From Hydrotalea sp. (GTDB lineage Bacteria; Bacteroidota; Bacteroidia; Chitinophagales; Chitinophagaceae), in the NCBI GenBank assembly GCA_022402565.1, contig JAKRSC010000021.1, positions 1,595-65,594 on the forward strand: DNA of 64,000 nt. Direction: 5' to 3'. Positions 1,955-10,075 of this stretch are shown one piece after another. The notes below the pieces were generated by a model. It ran no database searches, had not been told where the DNA came from, and was given only the letters and a program-made list of their open reading frames with translations. Numbering within the stretch: the first letter of the stretch is position 1; each line of letters begins with the position of its first letter. Both the position numbers and the translations under genes were made by a program.

Positions 1955-4900
1955 TTATCTATTCTTACTTGTTACAGATAGCTTTGCCGGCTTATAACGC
2001 ACACCGTTAGCACCTTCTAAATGAACAATATACACACCTTGACTACGCTGCTGCTGAGCATTCATTTCCATGGTTACTTGGTTTTCACCTTGAATGGCTT
2101 GAATAGCTCTGCTCATAACAGGTCTACCAGTGGCAGCATCTGTTAACTTCACAGTCAATGGCATTTCTATCGGACTGCGGAACTGAATAGTAAAGCGTCC
2201 TTCAGATGGGTTAGGGAATAACTGAACATCTTTAGCTTCTAGGCTACGTAAGTAGTCAACATCTGTTTTTGTAAATCCTACTTTTCCAATCGTTGCATTA
2301 ACTGCCGTATTTGCACCAGTAGCTTCAATACTGAATACCACACTGGTTACATCATTCGGACGAATCTTACCAGCAACACCTTTAGAAACAAAGTCGCCCA
2401 AACTAATTTGGTATTCCTTCTTCTGAGGATCTAATTGCAAAGTATACGTGTACTGATCATTCCACTGAGCAATACCTTCTTTAACTAAAGTGATTTTCAT
2501 CTTTTGAGCACCAGTTGCTTCAAAGCGAAGTGATCTGTATGCACTGATGTTGGTAGCCAAACCTGCACCTCTTAAGAACTTGTATGCAGAGATATAATCA
2601 CTTGTAGTTCCTTCAATTTGAATATCTCTAAATAACGGATATTCATCTTTATAAACACGAGCAGGATCATTTGTAACTCGGAAGCTACGAATGGTAGTTT
2701 GGTTTCTATTATAATCTAGTCCCCAAATACCATCACTCATATACATTAGGTCTGTGATTTCACCATTGATAAATAAACGTACATCACTTTCAAATCCATC
2801 GCGCATTTCTAATTCAAGGGTGCTTCTACCTTGCTGATTAATAGTAAATGGCACTCTGCGCTTGGTTACGCTTGCTTGCTCATTTAATTTTTCATCCAAC
2901 TCAAAGTAACCATTGCTATTTGGAGTTCTGTTCTCAATAGTAAGGATTAATTTACCACCAGTTCTAACACCGCTCACTACATACACTTCTGGAACAACAG
3001 CGTTGTTGCGTGCTTGAACCAATACACCATTGCTGTTGAGGCGACTTAAGATATCTTCAGTTAAGCTGCGCATCAATGCAGGAGTTTCAGCCCATACCTG
3101 GAAGTTGTACATGACTTCATCGTTCTCATAATCTTTCGTAAACCACTTGCTTTCTATATTGAGGTTATTACGACCAGCTTTTGCACCAGCAGAGAAGCTG
3201 ACAGCATATTCTACCTTACCATTAGCTTGACGAATAGTGTAGCTTAACATATCTACATTATTAGCCAAAGTAATTTTTTGAACATCTAGTAACTGAGCTC
3301 CACGCAAACGGTCACAAATAGGTTTAGTATGGTTATATACTTCATCCATTGTCTTAGTAGCGAACGTAACCGCTCTTGCTACATTAGACCTTGTGAAGTC
3401 AACACTCATTACTTCAACCGCATTGGTAAACTGAGTTAAGTCGGTTGGAGATGTAACAAACGCTTGCAATCCTGGTACCTGAGATGGAATCAAATCACGC
3501 AAACGCATACTTGTTCCCTGCATTTGAATACCACCACGGTCGTTTGTAACTGGACCATCCCATTTAGGAGTAGCTCCATAATTGGTTTCACCTAATTGAC
3601 CGGCCTTCGCTTTAGCCATATTACGTTTTCCAATTACTTCACCTAAGCTGTAGCTTTCAATTCCACCACCAGAACCACCGCTAACTCCACAACCTTGTGT
3701 AACAGAGGGATTAACGACTAGAGCAGTGAATCCACCATTTGGTGTTGCACCAGCTTTCATTAATACTACCAAATTGGTATCACTTAATACCCAATTCAAC
3801 ATCCTATTGTAGTCATTTCCACTGAACGTGAATGTATAAGTCAAAGTAACACCGCCATCTTCGCCATTATCATCTTTTATACCAATGAAAGGAGCATTTA
3901 CACCTGTAATATCACCCGTGTTATAGGAACCATCCTGACCAAAAGACCATATAGCATTACCCGCAGCACGAGTTTTATTGTTTGTATTTACAGGGAAGCC
4001 AAAAGTAACATGACTTAAATCTTTTGAAGTCAATGGGCTCTTTACAGTCAATACAAAACGAATGCTATCACACAAATCAACTACAGAATCCAATGTAGCT
4101 GACCATTCGTTCTGATTACCACCACCGCCACCACAATTGGATACAGCTATTGATTTCGTTACTTGAGAACTACCGCAAGTTCCATTAACTGTATATGTAA
4201 TAATTGCAGTTCCGTTAGATACTCCAGTCACAACACCTGTTGCTGCATTGACGGTTGCAACAGCATTGTTGGAAGAGCTCCATGTACCACCTGCAGTTGC
4301 ACTAGTATAAGTAGTTGTACTGCCAGCGCAAACTGTAGCCACACCCTGAATTGCATCTGGAGTTGGAGGAGCTGCGCTTATTGTAACACTAACTTGGCGA
4401 CTAGAAGAACCACAAGAATTAGTTACTGTATAAATAATATTTAAAGTACCACCCACATGACCGGTTACTACACCAGTAGATGGATTAACAGTTGCTAGAT
4501 AAGTATTTGTTGAACTCCACACGCCACCTGCAGTTGCTGAAGCCAATGTTGTAGTGCCGTTGATACAAATTTGTGTATTTCCAGTAATGATAGCCGGCTG
4601 AGCAGGAAGAGGATTAACAGTCATTGGGAATGTAACAGAGTTACTTCCACAAGCATTAGAAACTGTATAGGTAATAGTTACTGATCCACCTGCAACACCT
4701 GTTACTACACCTGTGCTTGAAACAGATGCGATTGTTGGATCAGAACTTGACCATGTGCCACCTGCTGTAGCATGTGATAAAGTAGTGGAAGCGCCCTCGC
4801 ATACTGTGTTGTTACCAGTGATTGCACCATTTAAAGTAGGAGTGCTTAACGCAGTTAATACAGTTGCATCACTTCTTTCACTAGCACATGTTGCTGGAGA

Positions 4901-6784
4901 AACAATTTCAACTGAATAAGAACCTGGAGTGGTAACACTTAAAGTAGCACCACTCTGACCATTAATTAAAGTATTATTTAAATACCAACGATAAGTTGAA
5001 CCCGTAGCAGCAGATGTAGCTGTTAGTACTGTTGGATTTCCATTACAAATATTGGGAACACTAGCACTTATTGTTGGTTTAGCAGGAATAGCATTTACTG
5101 TCAACAATCTGGTTACAGTTGTAGCACAACCTGGAGCGTTTGTTACAGTATAGCGAATTTCAGCAGATCCAGCATTTAATGTTGTAACAACACCAGTAGT
5201 CGGATGAACTGTTGCAACAAAAGGATTTGAAGATTCGTATGTTCCACCCGCTGTTGATGAAGTGATGGTTGTTCCAGTTCCTACGCAAACTGAATTATTG
5301 CCAGTCAATGCTGCCACAGTTGGAGGAACACATGGAGGAGGAGCAACACTGCACGGAGTAATACATCCTAAGAAACGATAGTAATGAACCTCTCCACCTG
5401 ATTGCATAAATGACTTACCTACAACCTGACCATCTATGTTTGATTGGTTCACTGTCTTTACTATATCTGCACTCGGTGCAAATACAGTTCCCCATATATT
5501 GTTATTGCCATTAATGTTCAGTGTAGTTGTATTGTAGAAGTTGTATATCACATAGCTCGCATCACTTCCTCCAATACCTGCTTGATTCCATACATTCCAG
5601 TTAAATGTTCCTGGTGCATTTACATTCACTACCAATATCCTATTCGCATTCGGCTTATTGTTGAATGTAAATACAGATACATTGTTCAAATCAGTTCCAC
5701 TTACATTCAAGACGTTAATTCCATTATTCAAATTTATCTTTACCTGATTTGGTAAATTCGTATTTCCAATGGCACCGCCATTTGGATTGGTAAGTGTTGC
5801 GTTATTCGCACAATTGGATAGGGTTGTTGCATTCGCTCTTAAAGCACTAAATGCATCTGAAAAATTCACTAACCCACTCTGTATAATTGGATTCGCACTT
5901 GCACTTGTAGCTAACGTATTAGCATTGTTATTTAAATGTATTCTTGGATTTGCATTGAAATTTCCTGAGGTAATTTGAATATTCGTAGCAGCATTGTTAT
6001 TGTCTGTATACCAAACTGTTGATCCTGTTCCATTACCAATTTTTACATTCCCATTATTAACTTGAATCTGATTGCCGCTGTTATAAAATACACGGCCATT
6101 GATTAATAAACCAACTGGAATATTATTCACCCTAAAGCTTCCTGCAGAATGGATAGCAACCTGATAATTATTGTTGTTACCAAAAGTTAAGTTGCCACCC
6201 ATTGCAATGGGACCCTCTGTCTCATTTGTAATTAAAGTAGCTCCATTCTCTAAGAACACATTGAACTCCTGTGTTGGTGCTAATGGATTAAAACACTCGG
6301 TATTACATGGAGTAGTAATAGAAGGTTTTGTAGTAAATGCGTTGAACTGTGTACCAGCCTTAGTCATGATAACTAAATTTGGATTACCAGCTAACCAAGT
6401 CTTTATTGTGGTGTAATTTGTGCCGCTGAATGTGAAGGTGTAGGTATATGAAGTACCCTTATTTCCACCACCATCATCCTTTATACCCGACAAACTTGGA
6501 ATACCAGAGATCTGGCCAGAGTATGAACCATCATTACCAAACGACCAAACGGTACTTCCCGGATTTTTATTACGCGCTGATGCATCAACTGGAAACCCAA
6601 ATGTTGCATGACTTAAATCTTTTGAAGTTGATGGACTACTTACAGTAAAACTAAACGTAATAGAATTACAGTTGTCTACAATGCTATTAGTTTTTACTGT
6701 CCACTCATTTGTGTTACCACCCTGAGCCCATAGCCCAAGAAATAAAAAAAAAGATAAAATGGTAAGCGTAAATTTTTTATACAT
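1955..6784 (-). CDS. Large type IX-secreted surface protein: choice-of-anchor A domain plus Ig-like repeats
   Basis: A 1609-residue exported protein. It has a signal peptide (residues 1-20, ending LWAQ), a beta domain at about 25-165 (NEWTVKTNSIVDNC, LSHATFGFP), a choice-of-anchor A domain at about 170-475, and then four Big_2-like repeats (motif TAGG.W.SS...ATV...TGVVTG) and one other Ig-like repeat at about 485-880. After a GGGGG hinge near 885 a second copy of the N-terminal beta domain follows (NEWSATLDSVVDLC, LSHVTFGFP). A region of about 450 residues that I cannot assign comes next, and the protein ends in a type IX sorting domain from about 1520 (LFPNPSEGRFTIQF). I infer a large surface adhesin, delivered by the machinery that includes PorU/PorV at 45-50 kb. 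A terminator hairpin lies just past the stop. The tandem partner gene is immediately downstream. Confidence 0.88.
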   Translation of the reverse strand: MYKKFTLTILSFFLFLGLWAQGGNTNEWTVKTNSIVDNCNSITFSFTVSSPSTSKDLSHATFGFPVDASARNKNPGSTVWSFGNDGSYSGQISGIPSLSGIKDDGGGNKGTSYTYTFTFSGTNYTTIKTWLAGNPNLVIMTKAGTQFNAFTTKPSITTPCNTECFNPLAPTQEFNVFLENGATLITNETEGPIAMGGNLTFGNNNNYQVAIHSAGSFRVNNIPVGLLINGRVFYNSGNQIQVNNGNVKIGNGTGSTVWYTDNNNAATNIQITSGNFNANPRIHLNNNANTLATSASANPIIQSGLVNFSDAFSALRANATTLSNCANNATLTNPNGGAIGNTNLPNQVKINLNNGINVLNVSGTDLNNVSVFTFNNKPNANRILVVNVNAPGTFNWNVWNQAGIGGSDASYVIYNFYNTTTLNINGNNNIWGTVFAPSADIVKTVNQSNIDGQVVGKSFMQSGGEVHYYRFLGCITPCSVAPPPCVPPTVAALTGNNSVCVGTGTTITSSTAGGTYESSNPFVATVHPTTGVVTTLNAGSAEIRYTVTNAPGCATTVTRLLTVNAIPAKPTISASVPNICNGNPTVLTATSAATGSTYRWYLNNTLINGQSGATLSVTTPGSYSVEIVSPATCASERSDATVLTALSTPTLNGAITGNNTVCEGASTTLSHATAGGTWSSSDPTIASVSSTGVVTGVAGGSVTITYTVSNACGSNSVTFPMTVNPLPAQPAIITGNTQICINGTTTLASATAGGVWSSTNTYLATVNPSTGVVTGHVGGTLNIIYTVTNSCGSSSRQVSVTISAAPPTPDAIQGVATVCAGSTTTYTSATAGGTWSSSNNAVATVNAATGVVTGVSNGTAIITYTVNGTCGSSQVTKSIAVSNCGGGGGNQNEWSATLDSVVDLCDSIRFVLTVKSPLTSKDLSHVTFGFPVNTNNKTRAAGNAIWSFGQDGSYNTGDITGVNAPFIGIKDDNGEDGGVTLTYTFTFSGNDYNRMLNWVLSDTNLVVLMKAGATPNGGFTALVVNPSVTQGCGVSGGSGGGIESYSLGEVIGKRNMAKAKAGQLGETNYGATPKWDGPVTNDRGGIQMQGTSMRLRDLIPSQVPGLQAFVTSPTDLTQFTNAVEVMSVDFTRSNVARAVTFATKTMDEVYNHTKPICDRLRGAQLLDVQKITLANNVDMLSYTIRQANGKVEYAVSFSAGAKAGRNNLNIESKWFTKDYENDEVMYNFQVWAETPALMRSLTEDILSRLNSNGVLVQARNNAVVPEVYVVSGVRTGGKLILTIENRTPNSNGYFELDEKLNEQASVTKRRVPFTINQQGRSTLELEMRDGFESDVRLFINGEITDLMYMSDGIWGLDYNRNQTTIRSFRVTNDPARVYKDEYPLFRDIQIEGTTSDYISAYKFLRGAGLATNISAYRSLRFEATGAQKMKITLVKEGIAQWNDQYTYTLQLDPQKKEYQISLGDFVSKGVAGKIRPNDVTSVVFSIEATGANTAVNATIGKVGFTKTDVDYLRSLEAKDVQLFPNPSEGRFTIQFRSPIEMPLTVKLTDAATGRPVMSRAIQAIQGENQVTMEMNAQQQRSQGVYIVHLEGANGVRYKPAKLSVTSKNR
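5319..6298. repeat. 980-bp direct repeat, copy 2 (choice-of-anchor domain)
   Basis: Second copy of the block at 285-1264. It corresponds to about residues 162-488 of the 1609-residue surface protein. The first mismatch on the right is A at 1265 against G at 6299. Confidence 0.9.
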
Positions 6785-7033: not shown

Positions 7034-7957
7034 TTATCTATCGCTTATATTAAATCTAGACTTCACTCTACCCCCTTTTTTCCCCTCATACATCCTATGC
7101 ATCACCAACATATGTGGAAGGGTTAAAATAGAAAGCAATATGAAAATTGCTGGTAAAAATCCAATTTTTACCCAATCCTTGTTACCTAACCAAACAATAA
7201 CCCCCAGAAAAACCAATGCACCTGCTGTTGGAAACATGGCTTTTTTAACCAAAACTATTAACTGTTCGGTTTTAAACGCGCTTAAACGAATATGCTGTAA
7301 AGCATGTAGACTATGCCAACCTGTGAAGTAAATTACAAAACCCATAATGAGTGATGTATACCTGAGTAGAAGAAGAAAGATTAGGAAGAAAATTATAGCT
7401 AAGTAAGACTTTTTAGAGCCTTCATTGTTAAACACTAAGATTACTGCAAGGATCATGTACCACCAGTAAGGTGATATTGAGGTGAGTTTTTCTACGGTTA
7501 ATGTTGCCAGGGTATTTCCTTGAGTAATGATGCTTGTCCAATATATGAGTGTATCTTTTTCTTGCACCAATAACCATAGGGTGATTGAAGCGCCATATAA
7601 AAAAAGTAGTGGTGGACTATTCAATTTTAATTGAAAGGAATGGAAATCAGTTTCACCAAAATGCCAAGCAGTTATCAATAAAAAAATAATAAAAGCAACA
7701 CCAGGCCATACCATCCAAACTCCCAAATAAATTAGTGCAATAATTATATACAAAACTAGAAACCGAAGTAGCTGAAATTTTTTTCTTGTCCTGCCTTCCA
7801 CTTCATGATCAAGAGAACCATGAGGTACCCCAGCAATTAAAATTGCAACTACTGCAATACCAAATTCTAAAGATGAGCCCAACCACCAGCTCTTTGTTAA
7901 TAAAGCTACACATGCAATTAGAAGAACTCCAAAACTATGAAGGGCTACTTCTCTCAT
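7034..7957 (-). CDS. blh: Beta-carotene 15,15'-dioxygenase, Brp/Blh family
   Basis: Membrane enzyme that splits beta-carotene into two retinals, the chromophore of the rhodopsin encoded upstream. The 307-residue length fits the family, and the chain is hydrophobic almost throughout. The family's histidines, expected to hold iron, are visible: PHGSLDHE at 45-52, WHFGETDFH at 98-106, GWHSLHALQH at 214-222 and PHMLVMH at 281-287. The start codon overlaps the crtY stop by four bases (ATGA), so the two are translationally coupled and transcribed together. The function is well supported by family motifs and gene context. Confidence 0.93.
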   Translation of the reverse strand: MREVALHSFGVLLIACVALLTKSWWLGSSLEFGIAVVAILIAGVPHGSLDHEVEGRTRKKFQLLRFLVLYIIIALIYLGVWMVWPGVAFIIFLLITAWHFGETDFHSFQLKLNSPPLLFLYGASITLWLLVQEKDTLIYWTSIITQGNTLATLTVEKLTSISPYWWYMILAVILVFNNEGSKKSYLAIIFFLIFLLLLRYTSLIMGFVIYFTGWHSLHALQHIRLSAFKTEQLIVLVKKAMFPTAGALVFLGVIVWLGNKDWVKIGFLPAIFILLSILTLPHMLVMHRMYEGKKGGRVKSRFNISDR

Positions 7958-9075
7958 TTTAGGTTTTTAATTCGCTTTAAAAATGGCCACCAGGGCAGAT
8001 GTAAGAATAAAGCTAATTCTTGAACGAATGTAGTATCCTCGTCCAGAAAAAGTAGAATATCTGAGATTTTCTTTTTCGAGAAAAGCTTCTTAAAAATGTA
8101 GGTTGCCTTAGGTGCATCTTCTCGAATAATAGATAACAATAACCGATCATATATATGAAACCTTCGTGGTCTTGTTCTCCTTGTTATTTCACCTTCCATC
8201 ATTCGCGCTAAAAGCTGTGCATCTTCAACCATTCTTTGAAATGCATAGCCGGTACTTGGTTTTATCATGCCAGCCGATTGCCCAATTAGTATAGGAACTT
8301 TCTTGTAAGTATGATCTATCTGTGTTTTTTCTAACAGAGGTATTACTCCGTATTCTTCAGCATTAATTTTATAATCTGTTCCAAATCGTTTTGATATGTA
8401 TGCATCTAGTTGCGATTTAAAAACATCTTTCTGTATCAATTGGTCATAATAGTAAGTACACTCAATTAATGCAGAATTTTCATCAATGGGTAAAACATAA
8501 AAGAATTGAAACTTGCCTTGACACCCTTCAGAGAAATCCATCAATGTGGCAGCGTTCCTTTCAAATGTTTGTCTTGAAAAAGTAATATACTCACCATAAA
8601 ATTGCTGCAATAAGCAGCTGTGGTGTTTTTCTGTTGGTAAATTGGATACATATTCATTACAAAAAAAAGTGGAAGTATTTGTTTGAATGCGCCACTGATT
8701 ATCTTCAAATGATGAATGTTTAACTGAGCTTTTTAAGTAACTAATATTTTTCCATGAAGGAAAAAAAGTCTCAGTGAAAAATGAATCAAATTCCTCACCA
8801 CGAATACACGAGTATGAATATGGAAAAATTGACTGCTGAGTTTGAAAATTTTCTGCTTCAAAGTTGAGTAAATCCCATTTAGATGAAACCAAATGTTGAA
8901 ATGGGTGATTCCCTTTTTCCCAAAAACACCATGTTTTATCAGCTAACTTATTTTCCTCTTCAATGAAAAGGATTTTTTTGGAAGAAAATGAACTGTAGTT
9001 GGATAAAAAAAATAATAAAATCCTTCCAGCTGCACCACCTCCACCTATAATAATATCGTATGAAACGTTTTTCAT
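7954..9075 (-). CDS. crtY: Lycopene beta-cyclase
   Basis: FAD/NAD(P)-binding cyclase that turns lycopene into beta-carotene, the substrate of the Blh enzyme encoded next. The 373-residue chain opens with a dinucleotide-binding glycine motif (IIIGGGGAAG, residues 8-17). It carries the bacteroidete cyclase signature DKTWCFWE (46-53) and a later GQSAGMIKPSTGYAF stretch at about 265-280. It lies between rhodopsin (55 bases upstream, across a terminator hairpin) and blh (4-base overlap downstream). Earlier carotenoid genes (crtE, crtB, crtI) are not in this window, so lycopene must be made by genes elsewhere. Confidence 0.92.
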   Translation of the reverse strand: MKNVSYDIIIGGGGAAGRILLFFLSNYSSFSSKKILFIEEENKLADKTWCFWEKGNHPFQHLVSSKWDLLNFEAENFQTQQSIFPYSYSCIRGEEFDSFFTETFFPSWKNISYLKSSVKHSSFEDNQWRIQTNTSTFFCNEYVSNLPTEKHHSCLLQQFYGEYITFSRQTFERNAATLMDFSEGCQGKFQFFYVLPIDENSALIECTYYYDQLIQKDVFKSQLDAYISKRFGTDYKINAEEYGVIPLLEKTQIDHTYKKVPILIGQSAGMIKPSTGYAFQRMVEDAQLLARMMEGEITRRTRPRRFHIYDRLLLSIIREDAPKATYIFKKLFSKKKISDILLFLDEDTTFVQELALFLHLPWWPFLKRIKNLK

Positions 9076-9088
9076 TAGTTCATAAAAA

Positions 9089-9116
9089 AGAGGCTTGCTG
9101 TTACCAACAAGCCTCT
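9089..9116 (-). terminator. Terminator hairpin between rhodopsin and crtY
   Basis: Stem AGAGGCTTG (9089-9097) pairs with CAAGCCTCT (9108-9116) across a 10-nt loop. On the minus strand it is followed by a T run (9083-9088). It lies just after the rhodopsin stop and ahead of crtY in the same direction. It should end most transcripts after rhodopsin and let only some read into crtY-blh. Confidence 0.8.
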
Positions 9117-9129
9117 TCCTAGTGCATTA

Positions 9130-9870
9130 TTAAGCAGCAGAAGCTTTTCTTGATAATGCGTAAATCACTAATCCAAAACCAATTTTGTTTACAGCATCAC
9201 CAATGTTGTAAACAATATCCATTGATGCAGCAGCAGCAGCTGGATCTGCAACCAATTGCATTCCAAACAAACCACCTTTAGTACCTAGAATATAACCAAG
9301 TGGATAAATAGCCCAACCTACAAGTACAAACCAAGCTAAAGTCTTGTTTGCAGCTGCAACAGCTGGCCCAGCGTTGTTAGCAAGTTTTGCAACTTCACCA
9401 AACCAAACTAAGTAAACGATGTAGAAATAGAATGCTCCACTAATAGCACCCCACACCCAACTTACAGTTTCGGTAGGATAAATTGCTTCACCCATGTAAC
9501 CAGTCACCAACATACCAACTGATGCAGCAATGAGTTTCCATAGCAAGCCTTGTGTTGCACCAGATTTTTTGGTGATTAGGTAAAATTCAACGCACATAAG
9601 TGGTACAGTTAATAACCAGTCTACATAACGGAAAAAGGTTGGCGACTGTCCCGTTTCTAAATTGTAACCGCGCATATAATAATAATGCACAGCAGCAATA
9701 AATGTGATAAGTCCCGATACCAATACAGATGTGCGCCATTTTGGATCGGTGTTACCTACTTCAAAAAAGAAGAAAACGGAAGCAGCCATCATGGCCATTG
9801 TGCCGACAAAAAACGTGAATGCAACGTAATTGTCGTTCGCGAGCGGAGTGACGTCGAGAAGAAAATGCAT
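9130..9870 (-). CDS. Proton-pumping microbial rhodopsin (proteorhodopsin/xanthorhodopsin group)
   Basis: Seven-helix retinal protein of 246 residues that should pump protons outward in light. Helix C reads RYVDWLLTVPLMCVEFY, giving proton acceptor D84, T88 and proton donor E95 (the DTE motif of H+ pumps). M92 is at the position that tunes colour and suggests green absorption. The Schiff-base lysine is K229 (GDAVNKIGFG), and H62 matches the histidine that partners the acceptor. G141 aligns by eye with the position that is Phe152 in green proteorhodopsin and glycine in carotenoid-binding xanthorhodopsin. There is therefore possible room for an antenna carotenoid. crtY and blh follow after a terminator. 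Confidence 0.95.
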   Translation of the reverse strand: MHFLLDVTPLANDNYVAFTFFVGTMAMMAASVFFFFEVGNTDPKWRTSVLVSGLITFIAAVHYYYMRGYNLETGQSPTFFRYVDWLLTVPLMCVEFYLITKKSGATQGLLWKLIAASVGMLVTGYMGEAIYPTETVSWVWGAISGAFYFYIVYLVWFGEVAKLANNAGPAVAAANKTLAWFVLVGWAIYPLGYILGTKGGLFGMQLVADPAAAAASMDIVYNIGDAVNKIGFGLVIYALSRKASAA

Positions 9871-10075
9871 AAACTTTGGTTTTTGAGTTTAAGAATCCAG
9901 CTGTTGTTTAACATCTGGGTGATTACTATTAAACAAACCGACTCGACTGATACTTGTTCAGAAAAAAATAAACTTTTTTGGAAATGTTTAAATATTAGCC
10001 TATTTGACCATTAAAACCTCTACAATATGAAAGTAAAATGTGATATGTTGGACCCACTTAGCCCCCCATTGAATC

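Follow-up and report, generated by a model that had tools for sequence, protein, structure and literature searches.

Kin4B8, KR1 from Dokdonia eikasta and EINA29G6 are described as rhodopsins that bind lutein or zeaxanthin, and in KR1, a proteorhodopsin (PR) of the Bacteroidota, energy transfer from hydroxylated xanthophylls was reported (Das et al. 2025, PMC12308411). According to this study, carotenoid binding calls for a glycine at position 153 and a tyrosine at position 204 (Kin4B8 numbering), and positions 208 and 209 are polar for 3-hydroxy xanthophylls and hydrophobic for 4-keto carotenoids. Carotenoid binding was lost in the S208A mutant of Kin4B8; the counterpart of S208 is a threonine in both KR1 and EINA29G6, and that of Y209 is an aspartate in KR1 and a glutamate in EINA29G6 (PMC12308411). 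In addition, a rhodopsin named NM-R1 in the title of its PDB entry was solved with zeaxanthin bound (9jou; 9jov is also NM-R1), and the title of Fujiwara et al. 2025 (cited in PMC13093654) presents carotenoids as photocycle-accelerating pigments that bind rhodopsins of marine Bacteroidota. Given KR1, 9jou and this title, the claim of an earlier note on the DNA studied here, that few bacteroidetes have a described antenna rhodopsin, holds less well now. Xanthophyll-binding pumps of the Bacteroidota are already described (KR1, NM-R1), and the rhodopsin reported below is not unusual.

We analysed a stretch of 64,000 nucleotides from Hydrotalea sp. (hereafter the window), in which an open reading frame of 246 aa on the minus strand (9130..9870) encodes the proteorhodopsin, hereafter Hydrotalea PR. 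It is the only rhodopsin gene found when the whole 2.98-Mb genome was searched, and it matches the Pfam family Bac_rhodopsin with 152 bits. By reading the residues directly we found H62, R81, D84, T88, M92, E95, G141, D225 and K229, which bears out the set D84/T88/E95, H62 and K229 that had been listed as typical of H+ pumps. The codon of D84, the Schiff-base proton acceptor and counterion, lies at 9619..9621 (-) and is followed by those of T88 and of the proton donor E95, and the codon of the retinal-binding lysine K229 lies at 9184..9186 (-). The seven-helix fold, the retinal lysine, the D-T-E motif and the histidine partner of the aspartate are all present. On these residues, and on the model and structural match described below, Hydrotalea PR is predicted to be a normal light-driven proton pump of the DTE type with outward H+ transport.

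Hydrotalea PR scored 285 bits against NM-R1 and 177 bits against green proteorhodopsin (GPR), versus 82-97 bits against xanthorhodopsin (XR), Kin4B8 and Gloeobacter rhodopsin (GR), and by these scores it groups with the proteorhodopsins, outside the xanthorhodopsin subfamily. An AlphaFold2 model built from 41 sequences reached a mean pLDDT of 90.1 and a pTM of 0.86. Foldseek and VIA-align agreed on 9jou, NM-R1 with bound zeaxanthin, as the top structural match of this model (60-62% identity; Z 31.1, with 230 residues superposed at an rmsd of 1.9), and the zeaxanthin-bound Kin4B8 structure 8i2z gave a Z of 25.9 at 29% identity.

We then considered the glycine itself (G141, codon GGT at 9448..9450 (-), helix E), for which the earlier note had proposed that it replaces Phe152 of GPR at the place of the xanthorhodopsin glycine. 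XR (the sequence used is that of PDB 3ddl, identical over all 273 residues), Kin4B8, GR, NM-R1 and GPR were aligned with Hydrotalea PR and 40 relatives by MAFFT in three modes. In all three, G141 shared its column with G156 of XR, G153 of Kin4B8, G178 of GR and G142 of NM-R1, and with F136 of the retrieved GPR stretch, that is F152 by the usual numbering, as proposed. Hydrotalea PR has a W-G-x-x-S motif in common with XR, Kin4B8, GR and NM-R1. The earlier note had doubts about the local alignment on account of a three-residue insertion; the pairwise phmmer alignment of Hydrotalea PR with GPR, which opens a three-residue gap just past the G141 site, explains them, and this gap is what would favour a misalignment in which a bulky residue in fact shuts the fenestration. 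The insertion sits in the D-E loop (131-136 in the model) and does not shift the register of helix E (137-156), which contains G141. Since the profile alignment and the predicted helix E both place the extra residues in this loop, the ambiguity is resolved. With every profile alignment and the W-G-x-x-S motif disagreeing with it, and with the model putting G141 within helix E, we consider such a misalignment highly improbable. Moreover, the bulky side chain that the earlier note had named as counter-evidence is absent from the fenestration in both the profile alignment and the model, and the closest solved structure, 9jou, has the same glycine. By alignment, then, G141 is the small residue that carotenoid-binding rhodopsins have at this place.

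The remainder of the predicted pocket was read from the same alignment. Y193 (codon 9292..9294 (-)) corresponds to Kin4B8 Y204 and XR Y207; this tyrosine is kept in the known carotenoid-binding rhodopsins, but it is found in GPR too and is hence not specific. T197 (codon 9280..9282 (-)) corresponds to Kin4B8 S208, where a polar contact with a 3-hydroxy ring is expected. The aligned sequences thus give Hydrotalea PR both the helix F tyrosine and the polar residue at position 208. The next residue, K198, aligns with Kin4B8 Y209 and is polar yet different from the Tyr, Asp and Glu of Kin4B8, KR1 and EINA29G6; most near relatives have a proline there. As the zeaxanthin-binding NM-R1 also has a proline (Pro199) at this position, a second polar residue does not seem to be required. 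Counting back from the aligned tyrosine, T177 and W180 correspond to Kin4B8 N188 and Y191, and these predicted ring-B contacts are identical in NM-R1. The counterpart of Kin4B8 T157 is G145; this difference and K198 both count against the xanthophyll-assisted pump proposed below. Taken together, the residues read at these positions would favour a hydroxylated over a 4-keto carotenoid.

In the direction of transcription, the rhodopsin gene is followed directly by a lycopene cyclase gene (Lycopene_cycl in Pfam; 7954..9075 (-)), confirming that the cluster encodes this enzyme, and by blh, encoding a beta-carotene 15,15'-dioxygenase for retinal formation (7034..7957 (-); TIGR03753, 150.8 bits for a cut-off of 95.25). 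This arrangement directly downstream of the pump ties retinal formation to it. In the flanking DNA available for the 80 nearest loci, we found both cyclase and Blh near the rhodopsin in 45 and Blh alone in 18 more. Record names put most of the near relatives in the Chitinophagaceae and point to freshwater as the main source of the samples.

A search for crtZ or another hydroxylase, suggested in the earlier note, was successful. On contig C21, which is distinct from the contig of the rhodopsin, a cluster with all genes on the minus strand (L007, 4889-11587) comprises crtY, crtZ, a cruF-like hydratase gene, crtD, idi, crtB and crtI, in the order crtI-crtB-idi-crtD-cruF-crtZ-crtY. CrtD (NF042421, 631 bits), CrtI (NF058655 CrtID, 735 bits) and Idi passed their NCBIfam cut-offs, and CruF, CrtB and CrtY were assigned above cut-off via Pfam. 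CrtZ, which had no match in the Pfam and NCBIfam libraries, was identified from the neighbourhood of crtB: it has four intact histidine boxes (HKYIMH, HEDHH, HDVIIH and HKMHH), and most of its sequence can be aligned with the sterol-desaturase-family gene that adjoins crtB in carotenoid clusters on Pantoea plasmids. Four sterol-desaturase-like genes found through PF04116 in the genome were rejected as crtZ candidates, none of them lying in a crt cluster, and this search missed the true CrtZ.

For the CrtW ketolase, an indirect test with PF00487 across the whole genome returned only two matches, whose open frames measure 364 and 376 aa; we read both, by their size, as fatty-acid desaturases, and nothing in this test points to 4-keto carotenoids. 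The membrane-type cyclase family PF18916 is absent from the Hydrotalea genome. In Nonlabens spongiae a nearly identical gene set together with crtA-OH makes myxol, and zeaxanthin and/or myxol were predicted (PMC11855829). By its gene content (crtZ, crtY, crtB, crtI, crtD and cruF), the host is predicted to make a suitable carotenoid, for which zeaxanthin or a saproxanthin-like product would be expected. The genome thus has two lycopene cyclases, 31% identical to each other, one at 7954-9075 with Blh and the pump and the other on contig C21 (L007:4889-6040) in the xanthophyll cluster, and it is possible that they serve separate lines for retinal and xanthophyll.

We also asked how common the glycine is. 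G141, Y193 and T197 are invariant in the 80 nearest homologues. Among 298 genomes of the order, a rhodopsin match was found in 65 and a crtZ relative in 215, crtZ being commoner in genomes with a rhodopsin (57/65) than in those without (158/233; Fisher p = 0.0016, shared ancestry ignored). All 59 DTE pumps of this survey have the fenestration glycine, as do all the NDQ, NTQ and DTK pumps seen, and the DSS type, with a tyrosine, is the only one that departs from it. We tested whether presence of the glycine follows that of crtZ across the order and rejected this idea, since the DTE pumps show no variation at this site. The glycine is present in all eight DTE pumps that come from genomes with no detectable crtZ (four of these genomes belonging to one genus and two having no crtB found), so that G141 alone does not predict an antenna. 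Hence, the fenestration glycine is permissive and inherited, and is not diagnostic of antenna use: the earlier note was right to read it as a fenestration, but as a hint of an antenna it is a clade-wide state that is not special to this gene.

Several loci of the survey deserve mention in their own right. In L099, L100, L101 and L103, which belong to one genus and in which crtZ was not detected, the glycine is kept and helix E is changed (WGGISGLGHFYII); in the one genome of this genus that was examined, crtI and crtB form a crt cluster together with the gene of a short membrane protein, which we read as a membrane-type cyclase. At L190 (G096, 7279-9929) the rhodopsin adjoins crtB and a short membrane protein, and Blh (PF15461) was not found in the genome. 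At L122 and L123 (G188 and G043) rhodopsin and Blh are present, with crtB and crtZ not detected in the genomes; uptake of carotenoid precursors by these hosts, or a crt cluster missing from the assemblies, may account for this. L165 (G247:C53:310990-311541), a DSS-group rhodopsin, contains an in-frame TAG; its genome gave five rhodopsin matches. Finally, L018 and L054 are near-identical Bacteroidota-type rhodopsins (81% and 78% identity) in MAGs titled Myxococcales and Methylotenera, and probably reflect mislabelled or contaminated bins and not transfer. Within the window itself, a direct repeat of 300 bases (246-545 and 5280-5579, 94% identity) belongs to a tandem-like duplication of genes that encode large surface proteins rich in repeats; the duplication involves the ORF of 1609 aa at 1955-6784 and, upstream, a region that is partly repeated.

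The alignment of the glycine, the match to 9jou and the crtZ cluster together suggest that Hydrotalea PR probably binds a 3-hydroxy xanthophyll, either zeaxanthin or a saproxanthin-like monocycle. A bound xanthophyll would most likely act as an antenna. We therefore propose, with a probability of about 75%, an outward-pumping proteorhodopsin in which a separately made 3-hydroxy xanthophyll is seated at G141 and transfers energy and/or changes the photocycle. The pump would be green-tuned (M92), and its retinal would come from the adjacent lycopene cyclase and Blh; the separate crt cluster would supply the 3-hydroxylated xanthophyll, which would be either zeaxanthin or a monocyclic carotenoid resembling saproxanthin. 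The xanthophyll would lie along the protein surface, with its hydroxylated beta-ring in the G141 opening near the retinal ring and in contact with Y193, T197 and K198. From there, the carotenoid would pass absorbed blue light to the retinal and/or alter the photocycle. Carotenoid binding, the identity of the carotenoid and energy transfer are what we infer here.

Zeaxanthin could also be only a membrane protectant, and the fenestration only an inherited structure in a pump that works with retinal alone in vivo. The constancy of the glycine in 59/59 DTE pumps and in all NDQ, NTQ and DTK pumps, with or without crtZ, fits this explanation, as do the separate contigs of rhodopsin and crtZ and the presence of crtZ in 158/233 genomes that have no rhodopsin. 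We nevertheless hold it to be unlikely, for the nearest solved relative has zeaxanthin bound, the polar T197 of the pocket is invariant in 80 near relatives and crtZ is commoner in genomes with a rhodopsin, a comparison that ignores relatedness. That a bound carotenoid mainly alters the speed or stability of the photocycle, and is not an antenna, would agree with the "photocycle-accelerating pigments" in the title of Fujiwara et al. 2025 (cited in PMC13093654); the energy transfer from hydroxylated xanthophylls in KR1 (PMC12308411) and the fact that both effects can coexist make this quite unlikely. On a more tentative note, and one that we find doubtful, two carotenoid lines might converge on one pump, with the first cyclase and Blh leading to retinal and the second cyclase, crtZ, cruF and crtD to a monocyclic saproxanthin-type antenna that has one ring like salinixanthin.

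If the proposed xanthophyll antenna is real, phototrophy assisted by hydroxy-xanthophylls would reach beyond the described marine Bacteroidota to the group of Hydrotalea PR, with both pigment pathways within one genome. The survey also carries a general caution: tallies of fenestrated rhodopsins overstate the number of working antennas, the glycine being fixed in the order even where crtZ is not detectable.

Among the known systems, Hydrotalea PR most resembles NM-R1 (9jou/9jov), also a DTE-type PR, with which it shares 60-62% identity, the glycine, the helix F tyrosine and threonine, and the fold; it differs from NM-R1 by K198 for Pro, I194 for Met and A142 for Leu, and additional residues make both its D-E loop and the segment ahead of helix G longer. 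Judged by their published residues, KR1 and EINA29G6 share with it the PR family, the glycine of the fenestration and the Y and T of helix F, but have Asp and Glu, respectively, where Hydrotalea PR has Lys198. Kin4B8 (8i2z; Z 25.9) belongs to the xanthorhodopsin family and is only 29% identical; its G153, Y204 and S208 match G141, Y193 and T197, whereas its Y209 and T157 are replaced by K198 and G145. Finally, Salinibacter ruber xanthorhodopsin (3ddl) and Gloeobacter rhodopsin (6nwd) have the same fenestration glycine and tyrosine at 27-33% identity, but their helix F position is a hydrophobic methionine that suits 4-keto carotenoids, where Hydrotalea PR has a threonine.
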